Source of the DNA: a virus
Direction: 5' to 3' (one strand)
Virus record (IMG/VR): IMGVR_UViG_3300050821_000310
Coordinates: 1-25,036 of that record
DNA length: 25,036 nucleotides
The stretch's first letter is position 1; each line of letters begins with the position of its first letter. Of the stretch, positions 4,560-23,742 are shown in pieces. The translations under genes and the position numbers were made by a program. The notes under the pieces are model-generated. The model was not told the DNA's origin, did no database searches, and was given only the letters and a program-made list of their open reading frames with translations.

Positions 4560-5791
<1,232 letters not shown>

Positions 5792-5792
<1 letters not shown>

Positions 5793-10619: not shown

Positions 10620-10780
10620 GCGGCGAGGAAGAAGTGATCCTCGACTGCTACCGCTTGGCGCGCTGGTATCACGTCAGCCCCGAGGTGTTTTTGGCGATGC
10701 CACTGAGTGACGTTTCGTTGCATCTGCATCGCACGGCCCAGTGCGACCGCGCGCAGCGCTCTGCAACAGGCGATGACTGA
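10164..10780 (+). CDS. Tail assembly chaperone, -1 frameshift long form (Mu gp41/gp42-type)
   Basis: Reading 10164-10595 in frame 0 and continuing at 10595 in the -1 frame gives 144 plus 61 residues, 205 in all. The extension contains GGEEEVILDCYRLARWYHVS followed by PEVFLAMPLSDVSLHLHRTA, a helical pattern like the second chaperone domain (E/T or gpE' type) that binds the tape measure. Its stop overlaps the tape-measure ATG by 1 nt. The extension has no early start codon of its own, only an ATG at 10697, so it is best explained as a frameshift product. The frameshift is inferred from the sequence and from its conservation at this position in other tailed phages. Confidence 0.75.
10589..10595 (+). 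other. Programmed -1 ribosomal frameshift site T TTT TTT
   Basis: Seven T residues are in exact X_XXY_YYZ register with the chaperone frame (codons TTT at 10590 and 10593, preceded by T). Slipping back one base opens a frame running to a TGA at 10778-10780. TTCTTCC (10594-10600) is complementary to GGAAGAA (10627-10633), so a stem could form nearby, but it would overlap the slippery bases and its role as stimulator is doubtful. Confidence 0.8.
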
Positions 10781-13281
10781 TGGCCACTGAACAGGAAGAG
10801 CTGCGCTTAACCGTCACGCTGATCGACAACGCTTCGGCTGGCCTGGACAAGCTGAAGGACAGCCTGAAGGAGATCGGCGGCGGCGGCAGCGGCGGCGGCA
10901 ATCGTCATATCCAGAAGTTCAACGACGAGACCAAGTCGCTCACCGAGAACATCAAAAAGATGGGCGGCGAGGTTGGCGAGGCTTTCAAGGGTCTCGGCAT
11001 GTTCCGGCTGGGCCTGCTTGGCGGCATCGGCGGGCTTGCCGCATTCGGTGCCGAAGTCAAAAAGCAGATGGTGGACCTCGCCGAGTACACCGACAAGCTG
11101 CGGGGCGTGAACCAAGCGGCGCGGCAGATCGGCGTCGATCCGGGCCAGCTGAAAAACATCATCGAGCAGTTCAAGGCTGTCGGCGTCTCGGGCGACACTG
11201 CGGTCTCGTCCATTGACGCCATCAGCGCCAAGATCGCCGAGCTGCAACGCTCGGGCAGTCAGCTTCGTCTCGATCTGATGCGGCAGGCCGGTCAAGACCC
11301 GCAAGCGCAGCGGAACATGGAGGACTATCTCAACCGGCTGACGCACGCCAAGACGCTGGCTGAAGAGCTGAACGTTATCCGCAAGGGCGGCGAGGATGTC
11401 TACCAGAACGCGCTGCGGCAGCATTTTTCCGAACAGGAAGCAGCGAACCGGCGCAACCGCTTCTGGCAGATGCAGGGCTACGACGCGCAGCTGCTGGCGC
11501 TGAACAGGGCCAAGGAGCTGTCAAAAGAGGAGCAAGAGCGCGAGAACGAGCGCATCAGCAACGCCAAGGTTTACTCGGATGCAATGGGCGACGTGCTCGG
11601 CAAATGGGACACGCTGGTCGAGCACTTCAAGTCACCGTTGTTCGGCCCGGACAGCCCGTTCCTGTGGACGCTGAAGCAGGCCTCTGCGCTGCTCGACAAG
11701 ATCAACAACGATCTGGAGCAGCACGAGGCGCGCGTCAAGGAAGCCGACAAGACAGCGCCAGCGCCGGAAGGCTTCTGGAGCAAACTCAATCCGTGGAACC
11801 AGCGCAACATCGACCGCGAGCGCATCATCGAACCGGGGCTGCATCCCGAGAAGAGCATCGAGGAAAACACCAAGAAGCTGGACGAGAGCACCAAGGCGCA
11901 GCGCGAGTTCATCGACGCGATTAAGAACGGTTACACGCCGATGAGCTACAGCGGCGGCGGAATCGGTGGCGGCGGTGGCATCATCCCCGCTGCCTATCAT
12001 CCAGACGGCGGCAGCCCGTTCGGCCCTCGCGGTGGTGGTGGCGCTCGGTTCGGCAGCGCGGAATATCCAAACCTCGGCCAGAGCACAGGCGATGGTGGTG
12101 GCCGCAGTGGTGGCGGTGCGCCCTATGGCAGCGACACAGGCGGCGCGACCGGGACGCCATCGTCTGGGCCTGCCGGCGATCCCTCGGTGCCGTCCGAGGT
12201 GCTTGATAAAGCCAAAGCGGTCGCGCTGCACTCCGGTCCCGGTGGCGTTGAAGCCTTCATGCGCAATCAGGGTTATCCGAAAGCAGGCAATTGGTGCGGC
12301 GAATTTGCTGCATCGGTTGTCAAGTCGGCCGGTGGCACGCCGCCGAAAAATCCGGCCATCGCATCCAACTGGCGCAACTGGGGCACCGAGGTCGATACGC
12401 CGCAGCCTGGGGACGTTGCTGTCCGCAGGGGCGCGCGCACTGGCGCAACGGGAAGCCACGTCACCTTTGTCGAAGGCGTCAACGCAAAGGGCGGCACCTT
12501 CACCGGCCTCGGCGGCAATCAGGGAGCGTGGGAGTCGACGCAGAAGACGGGCCGCTATCAGTTCTTCCGTGGCGGCATGCCGAACGGACAGACCGCAGGC
12601 GCTGGCACTGGCGCTGGTGCTGGCTCGACGCCGGTCAACGAAGCGATCCGCTCGACGGCCGGCACGGCCGGAATGGACGAAGCGCACTGGAAGGCCATCG
12701 CGGGGATCGAGAGCGGCCTGGACCCGTCGAGCAACGCCAACAGGTCGACGCAGTACAAGGGCCTGTTCCAGATCGGCACGCGCGGCGCTGACTCGGAATG
12801 GGCTCGCCGAGGCCAGGGCAGTCCCTACGACGCGCAAGCCAACGCCGAGGCGGCTGCGAAGCTCGCCTCCGACAACAACGCTTGGTTCAAGGGCAAGTAC
12901 GGTCGCGATCCGACGCCGACCGAAACCTACATGATGCACCAGCAGGGCCGAGGCTTCTATTCGCGCGGCTCGATGACCAACATCGGCGGGAATCCATATC
13001 CCGGCATGCGTGGCCCGCAAACGCACGAGTCGTTCGAGGCCGGCTGGGGCCGCGAGATCGAGCGCCGCGCCGCCCGTAATCAGCTCGATGGCTCGCAGGT
13101 CGCATCCACGAGGGTCGAAGGCACCGGCAAGCTGACCGTCGATGTCAACGCACCGAAGGGCACCAACGTCGGCGCTGAAGGCGGCGGGCTGTTCAAGAAG
13201 GTCGAGATGAACCGGCAGACCCAGATGTCGCCGGCCAGACGCGGACCCGAGGGCGGCTACGCCACGGAGTCGATGCTGTGA
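10780..13281 (+). CDS. Tape measure protein with two peptidoglycan-hydrolase-like domains
   Basis: The 833-residue product follows the chaperone genes, the usual place for the tape measure. Residues 1-385 are mainly helical, with one hydrophobic segment (~75-95, GLLGGIGGLAAFG). Residues ~388-470 are a Gly-rich linker. Residues ~475-595 resemble a CHAP/NlpC-type amidase, with Cys506 in GNWCGEFAAS and His560 in GSHVTFVEG. Residues ~625-750 resemble an SLT lytic transglycosylase, with likely catalytic Glu644 in IAGIESGLDPSSN and the family motif YKGLFQIG. The enzymatic part would open the cell wall during DNA entry. The C-terminal ~80 residues probably contact the baseplate hub. Confidence 0.88.
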   Translation: MATEQEELRLTVTLIDNASAGLDKLKDSLKEIGGGGSGGGNRHIQKFNDETKSLTENIKKMGGEVGEAFKGLGMFRLGLLGGIGGLAAFGAEVKKQMVDLAEYTDKLRGVNQAARQIGVDPGQLKNIIEQFKAVGVSGDTAVSSIDAISAKIAELQRSGSQLRLDLMRQAGQDPQAQRNMEDYLNRLTHAKTLAEELNVIRKGGEDVYQNALRQHFSEQEAANRRNRFWQMQGYDAQLLALNRAKELSKEEQERENERISNAKVYSDAMGDVLGKWDTLVEHFKSPLFGPDSPFLWTLKQASALLDKINNDLEQHEARVKEADKTAPAPEGFWSKLNPWNQRNIDRERIIEPGLHPEKSIEENTKKLDESTKAQREFIDAIKNGYTPMSYSGGGIGGGGGIIPAAYHPDGGSPFGPRGGGGARFGSAEYPNLGQSTGDGGGRSGGGAPYGSDTGGATGTPSSGPAGDPSVPSEVLDKAKAVALHSGPGGVEAFMRNQGYPKAGNWCGEFAASVVKSAGGTPPKNPAIASNWRNWGTEVDTPQPGDVAVRRGARTGATGSHVTFVEGVNAKGGTFTGLGGNQGAWESTQKTGRYQFFRGGMPNGQTAGAGTGAGAGSTPVNEAIRSTAGTAGMDEAHWKAIAGIESGLDPSSNANRSTQYKGLFQIGTRGADSEWARRGQGSPYDAQANAEAAAKLASDNNAWFKGKYGRDPTPTETYMMHQQGRGFYSRGSMTNIGGNPYPGMRGPQTHESFEAGWGREIERRAARNQLDGSQVASTRVEGTGKLTVDVNAPKGTNVGAEGGGLFKKVEMNRQTQMSPARRGPEGGYATESML

Positions 13282-19311: not shown

Positions 19312-20538
19312 ATGAAATATCAGCCGCCTTACGGCATCACCGATCCGAACGCGCCGTACATCAACGGCAATCCTGCCGCTGGCATTGAAGGTTCGATCCC
19401 TCCCGCCGCGTCGATTGAATTTCCGATGCGCGAGATCGTGGCCGCCATTCAATATTCGAACTTCGTGCCGAACGACGGCGATCTGCAGCAACTGGTGAAG
19501 GCGATCCGCAGCCAGTTCCTCAACTTCGCTATCGACACTGGCGTTGCGAACGCGATGCAGGTCAATCTGAACCCTGCACTCGATGCCTATTCGGCTGGCA
19601 CGCCATTGCATGTGCTGGTCGCGCATAACAACACCGGGGCCACCACGATTGTTGCCAACGGCCTCGGCCCGCGTGGCGTGAAGCGGCCCGATGGCTCGGA
19701 CCTTCAAGCTGACGATGTTGTCGGCGGCATGATCGCAACCCTGATCGACACAGGATCGGTCTTTCAGCTTCAGAATGCCGTCCAGGGATCGACTGGCGAG
19801 TCGAGCACCTTCACGGTCGGCATCCCCTATGCTGGCGATACCGGCGCGGTCAACGCAATCGTTGCGATCTACTCGCCCGCGCTGACTTCGATCACCGAAG
19901 GACAATTTCTCGCGGTCAAGGTCGCCTTCACCAATACCGGCGCGGTGACCTTCAAACCGAACGCGCTTCCGGCGCTGCCGCTCAATCGTCAGGATGGAGC
20001 GCCGCTTCAAGCCAACGACATTCTGCAGAACGAAACGCTGCTGCTCGAAAATCACGGCACGTACTATCAGATGGTCACCTACGTGCAGTCGCAATTCCCG
20101 GTCGCGCCGCTGCTGCGCGGCTGGCGCGCCGATGCGCAGGGCTATGGCGCTCAAGGCATCCCGAGTTCGGTCGGTGTGACGCTGGCGAATTACCACGTCA
20201 CCGACAACTCGATGGTGACCTCGACCTTCGATGGTTTCACGATGACAGTCGGCGCTGGTGAAGCCGGCTTGTGGGACCTGATGGCGCAATGGGTCTTCCC
20301 GCAGACTGGTGGCGGCGCGAACAATATCTCGACCCTTCTGCTCGTGAACAGCAACAACGTAGCGATGTCGACCGACGAAACACCGGGAGGCACAGCCGCC
20401 ACCTGTTACGTGGCTTCGACGATCAGGCTCAAGGTTGGCGATAAGGTGACAGTGCAGGCCTACCACCAAGCTGGCATTACGATCACGTCGGAAAACAGCC
20501 CCCGCCAATATTTCTCCGGTTATCTGATCTCGCGGTGA
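19312..20538 (+). CDS. Tail fibre protein with internal repeat and possible C1q/TNF-like tip
   Basis: The 408-residue product has a conserved baseplate-anchoring N-terminus (PPYGITDPNAPYINGNPAAG, then IPPAASIEFPMREIVAAIQY). Two related ~58-residue modules follow, ~96-154 and ~197-255: both contain NTGA, a PDG/QDG turn, LQADD/LQAND and a final Gln-rich strand. The C-terminal ~130 residues read like a C1q/TNF-type jelly roll: AGLWDLMAQWVF, STLLLVNSNNVAMSTDE, IRLKVGDKVTVQAYHQAG, and a closing FSGYLISR. That would be a trimeric receptor-binding tip. The tip assignment is by pattern only. It is the first gene after the baseplate block. Confidence 0.82.
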   Translation: MKYQPPYGITDPNAPYINGNPAAGIEGSIPPAASIEFPMREIVAAIQYSNFVPNDGDLQQLVKAIRSQFLNFAIDTGVANAMQVNLNPALDAYSAGTPLHVLVAHNNTGATTIVANGLGPRGVKRPDGSDLQADDVVGGMIATLIDTGSVFQLQNAVQGSTGESSTFTVGIPYAGDTGAVNAIVAIYSPALTSITEGQFLAVKVAFTNTGAVTFKPNALPALPLNRQDGAPLQANDILQNETLLLENHGTYYQMVTYVQSQFPVAPLLRGWRADAQGYGAQGIPSSVGVTLANYHVTDNSMVTSTFDGFTMTVGAGEAGLWDLMAQWVFPQTGGGANNISTLLLVNSNNVAMSTDETPGGTAATCYVASTIRLKVGDKVTVQAYHQAGITITSENSPRQYFSGYLISR

Positions 20539-20542
20539 TCAC

Positions 20543-20887
20543 ATGACCATCGTCAACATCATGACCGCGAGCGATGCCGACTTCTATCGCGGCTTCGCCT
20601 ATCAGGACATCAACGGCGTCGGCATCGATCTGACCGACAGCAAGATGCACATGGGCGTGCGCAAGAACGCTGAGGACGCGATAGAAATCTTTCTGCTGAC
20701 CACCGAGAATGGCGGCATCACCATCACCGATGCGGTCAACGGGCTGTTCACCGTCTGGATCACGCAAGCGCAGCTGATGGAGCTGCCGCCCGACACCTAC
20801 GTCCACTCGATGATCCGCGACTTCGGGCCGCTGCATCTGGAGATGTGGTCGGGCACGATCACGCATGAAGCTGGCCCGAGCCGATGA
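20543..20887 (+). CDS. Small beta-rich fibre-associated protein
   Basis: The 114-residue product is beta-rich ([58 protein letters not shown]) and ends with [10 protein letters not shown]. The pattern resembles small N-terminal modules of receptor-binding or BppU-type proteins encoded next to collagen-like fibres in other phages, here as a free-standing gene. It lies 4 nt after the first fibre and overlaps the collagen-like fibre by 4 nt (ATGA), so it may serve as an adaptor for that fibre. The role is inferred. Confidence 0.65.
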
Positions 20888-21651
20888 CGAGCAACGTCAC
20901 CATCCTGCCCGAGCCGGATGATGTCACCGTCATCCTGAGTGGTGATCAGGGGCCACCTGGGCCGCAAGGGATTCCGGGTCCGGTTGGACCGGGAGGACCG
21001 CAAGGCATACCGGGCGGCATCGGCATAACCGGCCCGCAAGGTCCTGTTGGCCCAAAGGGCGATCCCGGCGATGTTGGCGCTGTCGGGCCTGCAGGTCCGC
21101 AAGGCCTTCCGGGCGGCACCTTCCCTGACGCGCCGTCTGACGGCAACACCTATGGCCGCAACAACGCGGCGTGGATGATCGTCTCTGTCGCCGATCTCAG
21201 CGTCTTCCTGCGCAAGGCTGGCGATACGATGGCCGGTGCGTTGATCCTAAACGCCGATCCGACTGCCGCGCTCGGTGCAGCGACCAAGGAGTATGTCGAT
21301 AACAGCATACTCAACACGCTCAGCACGGCTGGTGGCCAGAATATAAGCGGCGGATTCTCGCTGACGCCGAAAAATCTCGGCACGCCTGGCTCTTTCACTC
21401 CGAGCCCGCTGCTCGGCAACTACCAGTTCTTCACCAACAACGGTGCGCTGACACTGCACGCGCCAGTCGTCGATTGCGCGATGGACCTGTTGATGACCAA
21501 CGGCGCGACGGCTGGCGCTGTGACGTTCGCCGGCTTCACTGTCGGCGCGAGCGTCGGAGATGCGCTGACCACGACGAATGGCAACAACTTCATCATCTCG
21601 ATTCGCCGCATCAACGCCGTCGCGACCTACACGATCAAGGCGCTGCAGTAG
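20884..21651 (+). CDS. Collagen-like tail fibre A
   Basis: The 255-residue product has a short N-terminal strand region, Gly-X-Y triplets at ~20-78 (GPPGPQG, GPKGDPG), the linker [17 protein letters not shown] (~81-97), then the common tail-fibre motif [19 protein letters not shown] with [10 protein letters not shown], and a beta-rich C-terminus ([40 protein letters not shown]). It should form a trimeric fibre. Its N-terminal half is related to that of fibre B at 22308, at both protein and DNA level, pointing to duplication. It ends with TAG overlapping the next gene's GTG by 1 nt. Confidence 0.8.
20974..20996 (+). repeat. Direct repeat, copy 1, shared by the two collagen-like fibre genes
   Basis: These 23 bases are identical to 22371-22393, and similarity continues on both sides with scattered mismatches (for example the following CCGCAAGGCAT is shared). 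They encode the same Gly-Pro-rich segment in the two fibre genes. The repeat could promote recombination deleting or swapping the 1.4 kb between, including the glycine-rich gene. Confidence 0.75.
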
Positions 21652-22295
21652 TGACGCAGATCGTCCTCCAATCCGGCAGCAGCTGGATTGTCCCGGCCGA
21701 CTGCTTCTTGATCGACAAGGTCGAGTGCTACGGCGCTGGCGCACCGGGTACGGCAGGCACGCCAAATTTTGGTTCAACAGCGGGCGGCGGCGGTCCCGGT
21801 GGCGGCTCCGGTGCCTCCGCTAGAAAGAACAGCGTGCCGGTTACGCCGGGTGCCAGCATGTCGACTTCCATCGGCATCAACAGCACCGCGACGAATTTTG
21901 CCAACCTCTGCGTCGCGGCGGCAGCATCCGGGCAGAGCGGCGGCGCTGCAGGTTCTTGCATCGGAGATGCAGCAACGGGCGGCAACCCCGGTGCGGCTGG
22001 GCAGGCTGCACCGGGTTCTGGCCCAGGCGGCAACGGCGGCAACGGCGGGACGGCTCCTGCCCCATACGGCGGCGCTGGCGGCGCGGGCGGCGCTGGCGGG
22101 ATACCATTCAACGTTGGCGGCGCTGGCGGCGGCGGCAATGCCTACGGCGGTGGCGGCGGTGGTGGTGGCGGCGGCGGCAACCAAGCGACTGGTGTAGGCG
22201 CTGGTGGCGCACCGGGCCAAGGCGTCATCGTCATCAACTACACGCCGCAACAGCCCTCCAAATCGATCTTCAACATGCCGATGCTCGGAATGTAA
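21651..22295 (+). CDS. Glycine-rich adhesin-like tail protein
   Basis: The start is the GTG at 21651, overlapping the previous TAG by 1 nt; the open frame upstream of it is shadow. The 214-residue product begins with strands (QIVLQSGSSWIVPADCFLID), and residues ~30-195 contain many Gly-rich patches (GGAGGAGG, a run of 11 Gly near 168-178) separated by short strands, closing with GQGVIVINYTP. This is the layout of the phage glycine-rich domain and of polyglycine-helix receptor adhesins such as those of gp38 type. Receptor recognition at the fibre tip is the likely role. Placement between two collagen-like fibres supports this. Confidence 0.75.
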   Translation: MTQIVLQSGSSWIVPADCFLIDKVECYGAGAPGTAGTPNFGSTAGGGGPGGGSGASARKNSVPVTPGASMSTSIGINSTATNFANLCVAAAASGQSGGAAGSCIGDAATGGNPGAAGQAAPGSGPGGNGGNGGTAPAPYGGAGGAGGAGGIPFNVGGAGGGGNAYGGGGGGGGGGGNQATGVGAGGAPGQGVIVINYTPQQPSKSIFNMPMLGM

Positions 22296-22307
22296 AAGAG
22301 GGCGCGA

Positions 22308-23465
22308 ATGACCGTGGCCGTCGAAGTCATCACTGTCCCCGAGCAGGGACCACCGGGGCCGCAGGGACCACCGGGTCCGGTTGGACCGGGAGGGCCGCAA
22401 GGCATTCCGGGCGGAATGGGGCCGACCGGCGCTCAAGGGCCGAAGGGCGACACCGGCGCTGCATCGACGGTGCCTGGACCGCCCGGTCCAGCTGGTCCGC
22501 AGGGCGATACCGGCGCGGACTCGACGGTGCCGGGGCCGCAAGGCCCGCAGGGCGATCAGGGACCGCAAGGACCGAAAGGCGATCCGGGTCCTACAGGCCC
22601 AGCAGGCGGTCTGCCTGATGCTCCGTCCGATGGCAAAACCTACGGGCGTCTGAACAGCGCATGGAGCCAAGTGCTGCCGATTGGCGGCGGCACGTTGACG
22701 GGCGCGCTGACAGTTCAGGGGCTGATCAAGGCCACGACGCCCGCCATCGCCGACAACTCCACGAACGTCGCGACAACAGCGTTCGTCAACCAAGACAAGT
22801 TCATTCCAGCGGCGACCGATCTCAACACAGTCCTCGCTCCCGGCACCTATGCCTGCCAAGACAACACCTGCACCAACGGCCCATCGGCTGGCGGTCAATG
22901 GTATCTGCACGTCCAGACCTATGCTGGCGCGCCGAGCTACCTGATGCAGCGCGCCGTCGATCTCACGGCCAACCCTCCCTCGTTGTATGTGCGAACGAGA
23001 ATCAACAACACTTGGTCCCCTTGGGTTCGTGTTGGCTCACCTCCCGCAGGCCACATCCCCGGCGATCTGACAGGCGGCGCGGCTGCTGCGGGCGAAGTCG
23101 GCGAAGTTATCTCCGCGAGCAATAGCAGCGTGGGCTTTTCCAACGGTGTGTCCTTCAACGTCTGCTCGATCCCGCTGACACCCGGAGATTGGGACGTTTC
23201 ATCGTTCCTCTTGCTGAACGGCACGCCACTGACGATGCAGACGTTCCAATCCGCTGTCTCGAACGCATCGGGCACACTGACCAACACGGCTGGCACCAAT
23301 TCCTTCGTTGGACCTTTCGTGCAGTATTACAATTGCGGTCTGCCAACTATTCCGACGCAAATCAGAACCGCAGCGAACCTCACACTCTGGCTCGTCGGAA
23401 ACATCACCTTCAACGCGGGCGGCGGCACGGTCAGCGGCACCCTTCGCGCGAGGCGCATGCGATGA
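22308..23465 (+). CDS. Collagen-like tail fibre B with pyocin-knob-like and tip domains
   Basis: The 385-residue product has interrupted Gly-X-Y repeats at ~14-101 (with two ASTVPGP/DSTVPGP interruptions), the linker [17 protein letters not shown] shared with fibre A, a fibre motif [19 protein letters not shown] (~143-161), a pyocin-knob-like module (~169-242, from [17 protein letters not shown] to [10 protein letters not shown]), and a beta-rich C-terminal module (~264-385, including [20 protein letters not shown]), common at phage fibre ends. It is likely a trimeric receptor-binding fibre. GAGGG before the ATG at 22308 supports the start. Confidence 0.85.
22371..22393 (+). repeat. Direct repeat, copy 2, shared by the two collagen-like fibre genes
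   Basis: This is identical over 23 bases to 20974-20996 in fibre A, and lies in the collagen-coding part of fibre B. The spacing between copies is about 1.4 kb. Confidence 0.75.
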
Positions 23466-23490
23466 TCTCGGACGCGAGGATTTAGAACCG

Positions 23491-23742
23491 ATGCCTTACG
23501 TTGCACGCGATCAGTTCGGCTTCATCGGCTGTCTTTTTGGGAACGAGCAGCCCGGCGTTGCCGAAGAGTTCTTGCCTGACGACGACCCCGAAGTGGTGGC
23601 GTATCTCAGCCCAAAGCCGCAGCCCGAGAGTGTCGTGCTGTACGATCACGAGAATCGTATCCGCGCGCAGGAGGGCCTGCCGCCGCTGACACCTGAGGAG
23701 TTCGTGATGTCGATCAACCAGCGCGCGACCAAGAGTCGTTGA
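23491..23742 (+). CDS. Small tail-fibre-assembly-like protein
   Basis: I chose the ATG at 23491, giving 83 residues, because the open frame upstream (to 23308) lies in the fibre B gene and is shadow, and GAGGA at 23476-23480 lies before it. The product is acidic and begins PYVARDQFGFIGCLFGNEQP, then EEFLPDDDPEVVAYLSPKP, and ends with a helix. This short layout (a strand-turn start followed by an acidic DDDPEV motif) is common in small proteins encoded just after phage fibres, often called fibre assembly proteins. It is the last gene of the late operon, 25 nt before the terminator. Confidence 0.65.
   Translation: MPYVARDQFGFIGCLFGNEQPGVAEEFLPDDDPEVVAYLSPKPQPESVVLYDHENRIRAQEGLPPLTPEEFVMSINQRATKSR

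Follow-up and report, generated by a model that had tools for sequence, protein, structure and literature searches.

A probable receptor-binding cassette with two collagen-stalked tips, one of them built from two genes, in a Mu/SfV-type myophage

The window analyzed here, i.e. the whole stretch of DNA that was studied, is a viral contig of 25,036 bases from IMG/VR without an attached host genome. Its genes constitute a Mu/SfV-type myophage set, including a fused prohead protease and capsid protein, a GpP/gp44-like hub, Baseplate_J, and Gp48, and the latter three are found in the contractile-tail order, all upstream of the fibre genes. The prohead protease and the major capsid protein are fused in a single 700-aa ORF (723-2825; PF04586 + PF05065), and the ORF in the tape-measure position (10780-13281) carries CHAP and lysozyme-like domains. 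Because all ten matches of the window gp48 in the genome collection (10/10) fall in Bradyrhizobium, we infer a host of the Bradyrhizobium type, and the source is a soil phage, probably with a Bradyrhizobium host.

Two fibre genes, which are on the plus strand like all other parts of this region (20543..23742), are located downstream of Baseplate_J and Gp48, and PHROG tail families were matched. Fibre A (20884..21651, 255 aa) has an orthologue in L167/L082, and fibre B (22308..23465, 385 aa) matches phrog_5073, phrog_3971, and phrog_11393. Both exceed the Pfam Collagen gathering score of 27.2 bits (fibre A with 28.7 bits and an E value of 1.2e-6, fibre B with 29.6 bits), and by their sequences they belong to the known kind of collagen-like phage tail fibres. 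The preliminary description of this DNA had counted two collagen fibres, both of which are present; it did not mention a third collagen ORF (4560-5792), which is longer than these two (410 aa; Pfam Collagen E 3e-30) and has the portal gene on one side and the next head/tail-joining genes on the other.

Fibre A is composed of an A-type leader, a Gly-X-Y stalk, a linker, a coil/repeat segment, and a C-terminal domain that comprises its last 106 residues and ends with TYTIKALQ (21331..21648), termed A_tip in the following. Fibre B is composed of a B-type leader, a Gly-X-Y stalk, a linker, a knob-like domain, and a terminal beta domain. The two linkers (21129..21176 in fibre A, as read from the sequence, and 22617..22664 in fibre B) share the motif DAPSDGxTYGRxNxAW, and the regions behind them are unrelated (best BLASTP E 0.26). 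The motif is widespread among phage fibres: 35 loci contain 47 distinct copies, and 27 copies immediately follow a Gly-X-Y tract. For the knob-like region of tip B no Pfam match was found, and residues about 150-245, a putative pyocin-knob-like domain, match only phrog_3971, a family of unknown function. Tip B also did not match any solved structure in the PDB by sequence or any entry of the annotated phage collection.

Between the two fibre genes lies a glycine-rich gene (21651..22295, 214 aa, about 30% Gly), which starts with GTG, overlaps the fibre A stop by one nucleotide, and ends with the heptapeptide NMPMLGM (22272..22292). Fibre A is preceded by the small conserved gene o114 (20543..20887; phrog_1084, function unknown), the stop codon of which overlaps the fibre A start in an ATGA, and the last fibre is followed by the small gene o83 (23491..23742). 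In addition, the two fibre genes share an identical 23-bp segment, CCGGGTCCGGTTGGACCGGGAGG, which is in frame 0 in both genes (20974..20996 and 22371..22393), is the longest exact direct repeat of the window, and is embedded in a 101-nt block with 81% identity (20944-21044 / 22341-22441). The preliminary description was right about the positions of the 23-bp identity and of both linkers, about the lack of relation between the tips, and about the glycine-rich gene that separates the fibres.

About 90 related tail regions were gathered by profile scans with gp48. In these regions, gp48 is usually followed by a C1q-like fibre, in many cases a gene of ~150-200 aa, o114, a collagen fibre, and, in several loci, o83. 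The collagen fibre begins at the same ATGA overlap with o114 as in the window. The chaperone-like gene between the C1q-like fibre and o114, which encodes DUF4376 in L165 (3305-3823), is found in many relatives and is missing from the window (20538-20543) and from the close relative L162. A single collagen fibre ahead of o83 is present in L181, L203, L213, L215, L216, and L233, and two collagen fibres are present in L165, L003, L007, and L008; o83 was not seen in the latter three. L165 shows both fibre loci most clearly, with an A-type leader (MTSNATV), a B-type leader (MTVGVTVITV), and then o83; its two tips are 50% identical to each other and resemble neither of the window tips. In L167, the tip of fibre A is retained with 83.5% identity, and the beginning of the glycine-rich gene is found at the same position.

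Two relatives contain mosaic tips. In L162 (91% identity in gp48), an A-type leader directly behind o114 is combined with the tip of fibre B. The L162 tip has 88% DNA identity to the window tip B, more than the about 75-80% of the shared backbone, which points to a tip exchange later than the split of the backbones. The high-identity block begins at window position 22735, before the linker motif PAIADNS...ATTAFV, and this position was used as the left edge of tip B (22735..23465); ahead of the shared block, between linker and knob, L162 carries an extra domain that is missing in the window. L352 is on a 43-kb contig without a gp48 homologue and has an unrelated backbone. It contains a fibre with A_tip and a tailed glycine-rich gene, a further fibre, a tip of the B type, and o83, and its DNA homology to fibre B extends from 22617, at the start of the DAPSDG linker, to 23702 inside o83. 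Furthermore, the two parts of tip B were found separately on other fibres in Bradyrhizobium genomes. Taken together, these comparisons show that phages exchange such tips and that the visible boundaries are inter-domain linkers and not the 23-bp repeat. Mosaic tips, the lack of which among relatives had been named in the preliminary description as evidence against its proposal, do exist in L162 and L352.

An alternative view is that the two fibres serve one virion in parallel as receptor-binding proteins and that their similarity stems from an old duplication that has no role in exchange. The homologous tips of the two L165 fibres, both encoded between o114 and o83, and the tandem fibres of L003, L007, and L008 would fit this view; against it, the same tip is found at more than one locus and also in another backbone. 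We consider this explanation unlikely, and duplication and exchange are compatible because parallel fibres can be swapped, too.

The A_tip domain and the glycine-rich gene turned out to be associated far beyond the window. A_tip is directly followed by an overlapping or adjoining glycine-rich gene in the window, L167, L313, and L314, and in most relatives the adhesin gene overlaps or adjoins the fibre gene directly upstream of it. The followers vary in head and length, yet they end in a common tail, most often NMPMLGM. In L317 the head is not glycine-rich, and the tail is kept. In five further followers (L324, L332, L333, L334, L337), what by eye appears to be an IPT/TIG-like domain precedes the tail and replaces the usual final strand, so the head varies and the tail is constant. 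There are 26 distinct A_tip ORFs that are complete at the end and have >1.5 kb of downstream sequence, and 23 of them have a tailed follower; the A_tip ORFs of L331, L338, and L339 lack one. The distant A_tip proteins of L272 and L273 have apparent signal peptides, and their glycine-rich followers lack the NMPMLGM tail. Conversely, the tail pattern occurred in 26 of 12,010 distinct ORFs of at least 100 aa, and 25 of these 26 follow an A_tip gene.

A_tip had served in part to collect the loci that contain these 12,010 ORFs. Two further scans were therefore made blind to this domain, and only these two escape that bias. In the first, a DNA pattern of the tail was used to scan 266 Bradyrhizobium genomes and yielded two hits and no control hits (0); each hit is located just downstream of one of the two strongest A_tip genes. 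The second, a scan of IMG/VR, yielded 32 hits, 21 of which were testable, i.e. had a long ORF and upstream sequence. An A_tip ORF overlaps or adjoins the tailed gene in all 21 of these stretches (15 distinct). Of the remaining hits, nine are truncated too far for this comparison, and two, L442 and L444, were rejected as chance hits because no long ORF ends there. Upstream matches of the A_tip and glycine-rich queries in L169 were also discarded, as they are glycine-rich repeats in another protein and not pairs.

Judged by this gene order, fibre A and the glycine-rich gene are one two-gene unit. Window-type gp48 was found on only one of 20 A_tip contigs that were searched, and therefore the unit travels among different phage backbones. 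Some A_tip contigs are podovirus-like in gene content, as judged by eye, and one phage contig (L323:1387-6959) harbours two units of A_tip and tailed adhesin. The 28-member alignment of A_tip did not match any Pfam or PHROG family, a text search of the literature with the tail peptide returned no paper, a scan with the glycine-rich protein alone as query found no relative, and the annotated phage collection contained no relative of this protein either. The pairing of A_tip with the tail is absent from the family libraries and the literature searched and thus appears undescribed.

Structure predictions were obtained for both partners. The model of A_tip has a pLDDT of 91.4. No PDB fold stood out among its matches, the weak ones including T4 gp9 and CBA120 TSP4; predicted viral tail-fibre proteins have the same fold, and therefore the missing PDB match does not indicate a new fold. 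In the model of the glycine-rich protein, the beta sandwich is confident, the glycine loops are less so, and the tail is uncertain. A fold comparison matched this model to gp24, the fibre protein of Pam3 (E 4.1e-6), and a profile match to the same protein was obtained (E 1e-8). In the profile search of solved structures only the Pam3 fibre was returned, and T-even gp38 was not among the matches listed. The adhesin-like character that had been proposed for the gene is thus borne out by the resemblance of both fold and profile to the Pam3 fibre.

Genes directly behind fibre genes frequently encode assembly chaperones, and three of nine members of the glycine-rich family have weak matches to a PHROG with the name 'tail fiber assembly', so the product could in principle be a chaperone of fibre A instead of an adhesin of the virion. 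This is quite unlikely, however, because the fibre of Pam3 itself is the match by both fold and profile, while the chaperone of Pam3 is the separate gp25 (PMC9608196), and because the heads are variable, as should be the case for adhesins.

The preliminary description had proposed that the 23-bp repeats mediate a deletion that serves as a host-range switch. A deletion between the repeats would join codon 30 of fibre A to codon 22 of fibre B, so that the A leader is fused with the B tip and the entire A unit is lost. The fusion would be in frame and open for 394 aa. In principle, the repeat might yield such an in-frame, irreversible deletion, and no recombinant of this kind was seen. The repeat itself did not turn out to be special. 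In a codon-resampling control, both proteins were fixed and the codons were redrawn in 400 simulations according to gene-wide or collagen codon usage. The longest shared exact run reached at least 23 bp in 6.5% (gene-wide usage) or 2.5% (collagen usage) of the simulations, and the 81% identity over 101 nt was attained in 13% or 0.75%, respectively. The repeat is thus near expectation and its significance is weak; because resampling gives such runs, the likeness of the two genes mostly reflects the shared collagen protein sequence and codon bias. Duplicate prophage regions in two Bradyrhizobium genomes (L298/L299 in G199 and L300/L301 in G101) were considered as a test of recombination and discarded as uninformative, because the copies are too alike, with 100% identity along 14.9 kb in G199 and 98.8% along 9.3 kb in G101.

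The genes of L162 are arranged as expected after the deletion, as far as its contig reaches. The contig stops inside the tip, so L162 is not demonstrably a deletion product and may carry an imported tip; when sequence beyond the L162 end was sought by a scan with the B tip, the only strong tip match was the same L162 contig. A role of the exact, in-frame repeats in removing the distal part of fibre A and the adhesin is very improbable, since their length is near the resampled expectation, the observed tip boundaries map elsewhere, and the extra L162 domain speaks against a simple product of the window arrangement. The term 'switch' is an overstatement because such a deletion is one-way and could not be reversed.

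Several known systems can be compared with the window. In Pam3, the TNF-like and glycine-rich domains of gp24 are reported to recognise the host, and the protein docks on the baseplate via its own N-terminal helices (PMC9608196). Pam3 gp24 (7ypx, 7yfw) is like the window adhesin in combining a beta sandwich with glycine-rich loops and is its best fold and profile match; the profile match to the Pam3 chain ends ahead of the NMPMLGM tail. In the gp37-gp38 tips of long tail fibres of the T2, S16, and PP01 type, a fibre gene likewise stands ahead of a second gene, which encodes a variable, glycine-rich tip adhesin, and in T2 gp38 attaches to gp37 through its N-terminus (PMC12892980). In contrast, it is the C-terminal tail that stays constant in the window-type followers, and a different domain, which carries no name, forms the fibre end. 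Attachment of the window adhesin to the fibre end is suggested here by gene pairing only, and would amount to a gp37/gp38-like tip docking via a C-terminal tail. Collagen-like prophage tail fibres, for example those of E. coli O157 prophages, have Gly-X-Y stalks with interchangeable domains (PMC3368898) and thus the same build of stalk plus exchangeable domain as the window fibres; unlike them, the window pairs two fibres in tandem around a tip adhesin gene, and the swaps map to linkers. The antireceptors of Streptococcus thermophilus phages have collagen-like repeats between domains and a variable host-range region (PMC5601072). They belong to siphophages of another host group, and the comparison with the window is one of described domain layout.

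Considering all results together, the region is probably the cassette for receptor binding in a Mu/SfV-type myophage that has relatives of the Bradyrhizobium type, with two alternative collagen-stalked tips that are exchanged at linkers. Tip 1 would be encoded by two genes, namely fibre A, which ends in the constant A_tip, and the overlapping glycine-rich adhesin gene; tip 2 would be a one-gene fibre with the knob-like domain and the terminal beta domain. The gene pairing suggests that the NMPMLGM tail of the adhesin most likely docks on A_tip, which would allow the head to be replaced while the fibre is left unchanged. Over evolution, as the comparison of relatives shows, tips recombine at the conserved inter-domain linkers. 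Both fibres presumably bind receptors, and an exchange of tips would be expected to change the host range.

Collagen-like fibres and the shuffling of their tips are of an already known kind, and the pairing of A_tip with the tail appears to be the new part. We give even chances to a more general proposal, in which A_tip is a socket and NMPMLGM the plug, so that any adhesin with the seven-residue tail could clip on a common fibre end, and myophage-like and podovirus-like environmental phages could exchange heads of unrelated folds. How receptor-binding heads can be changed without breaking the fibre is both a practical and an evolutionary question. If the proposal is true, a short portable docking tail and one fibre-end domain would provide a simple rule for the exchange of adhesins among unrelated phages, and the seven-residue signature would reveal exchangeable heads in metagenomes.
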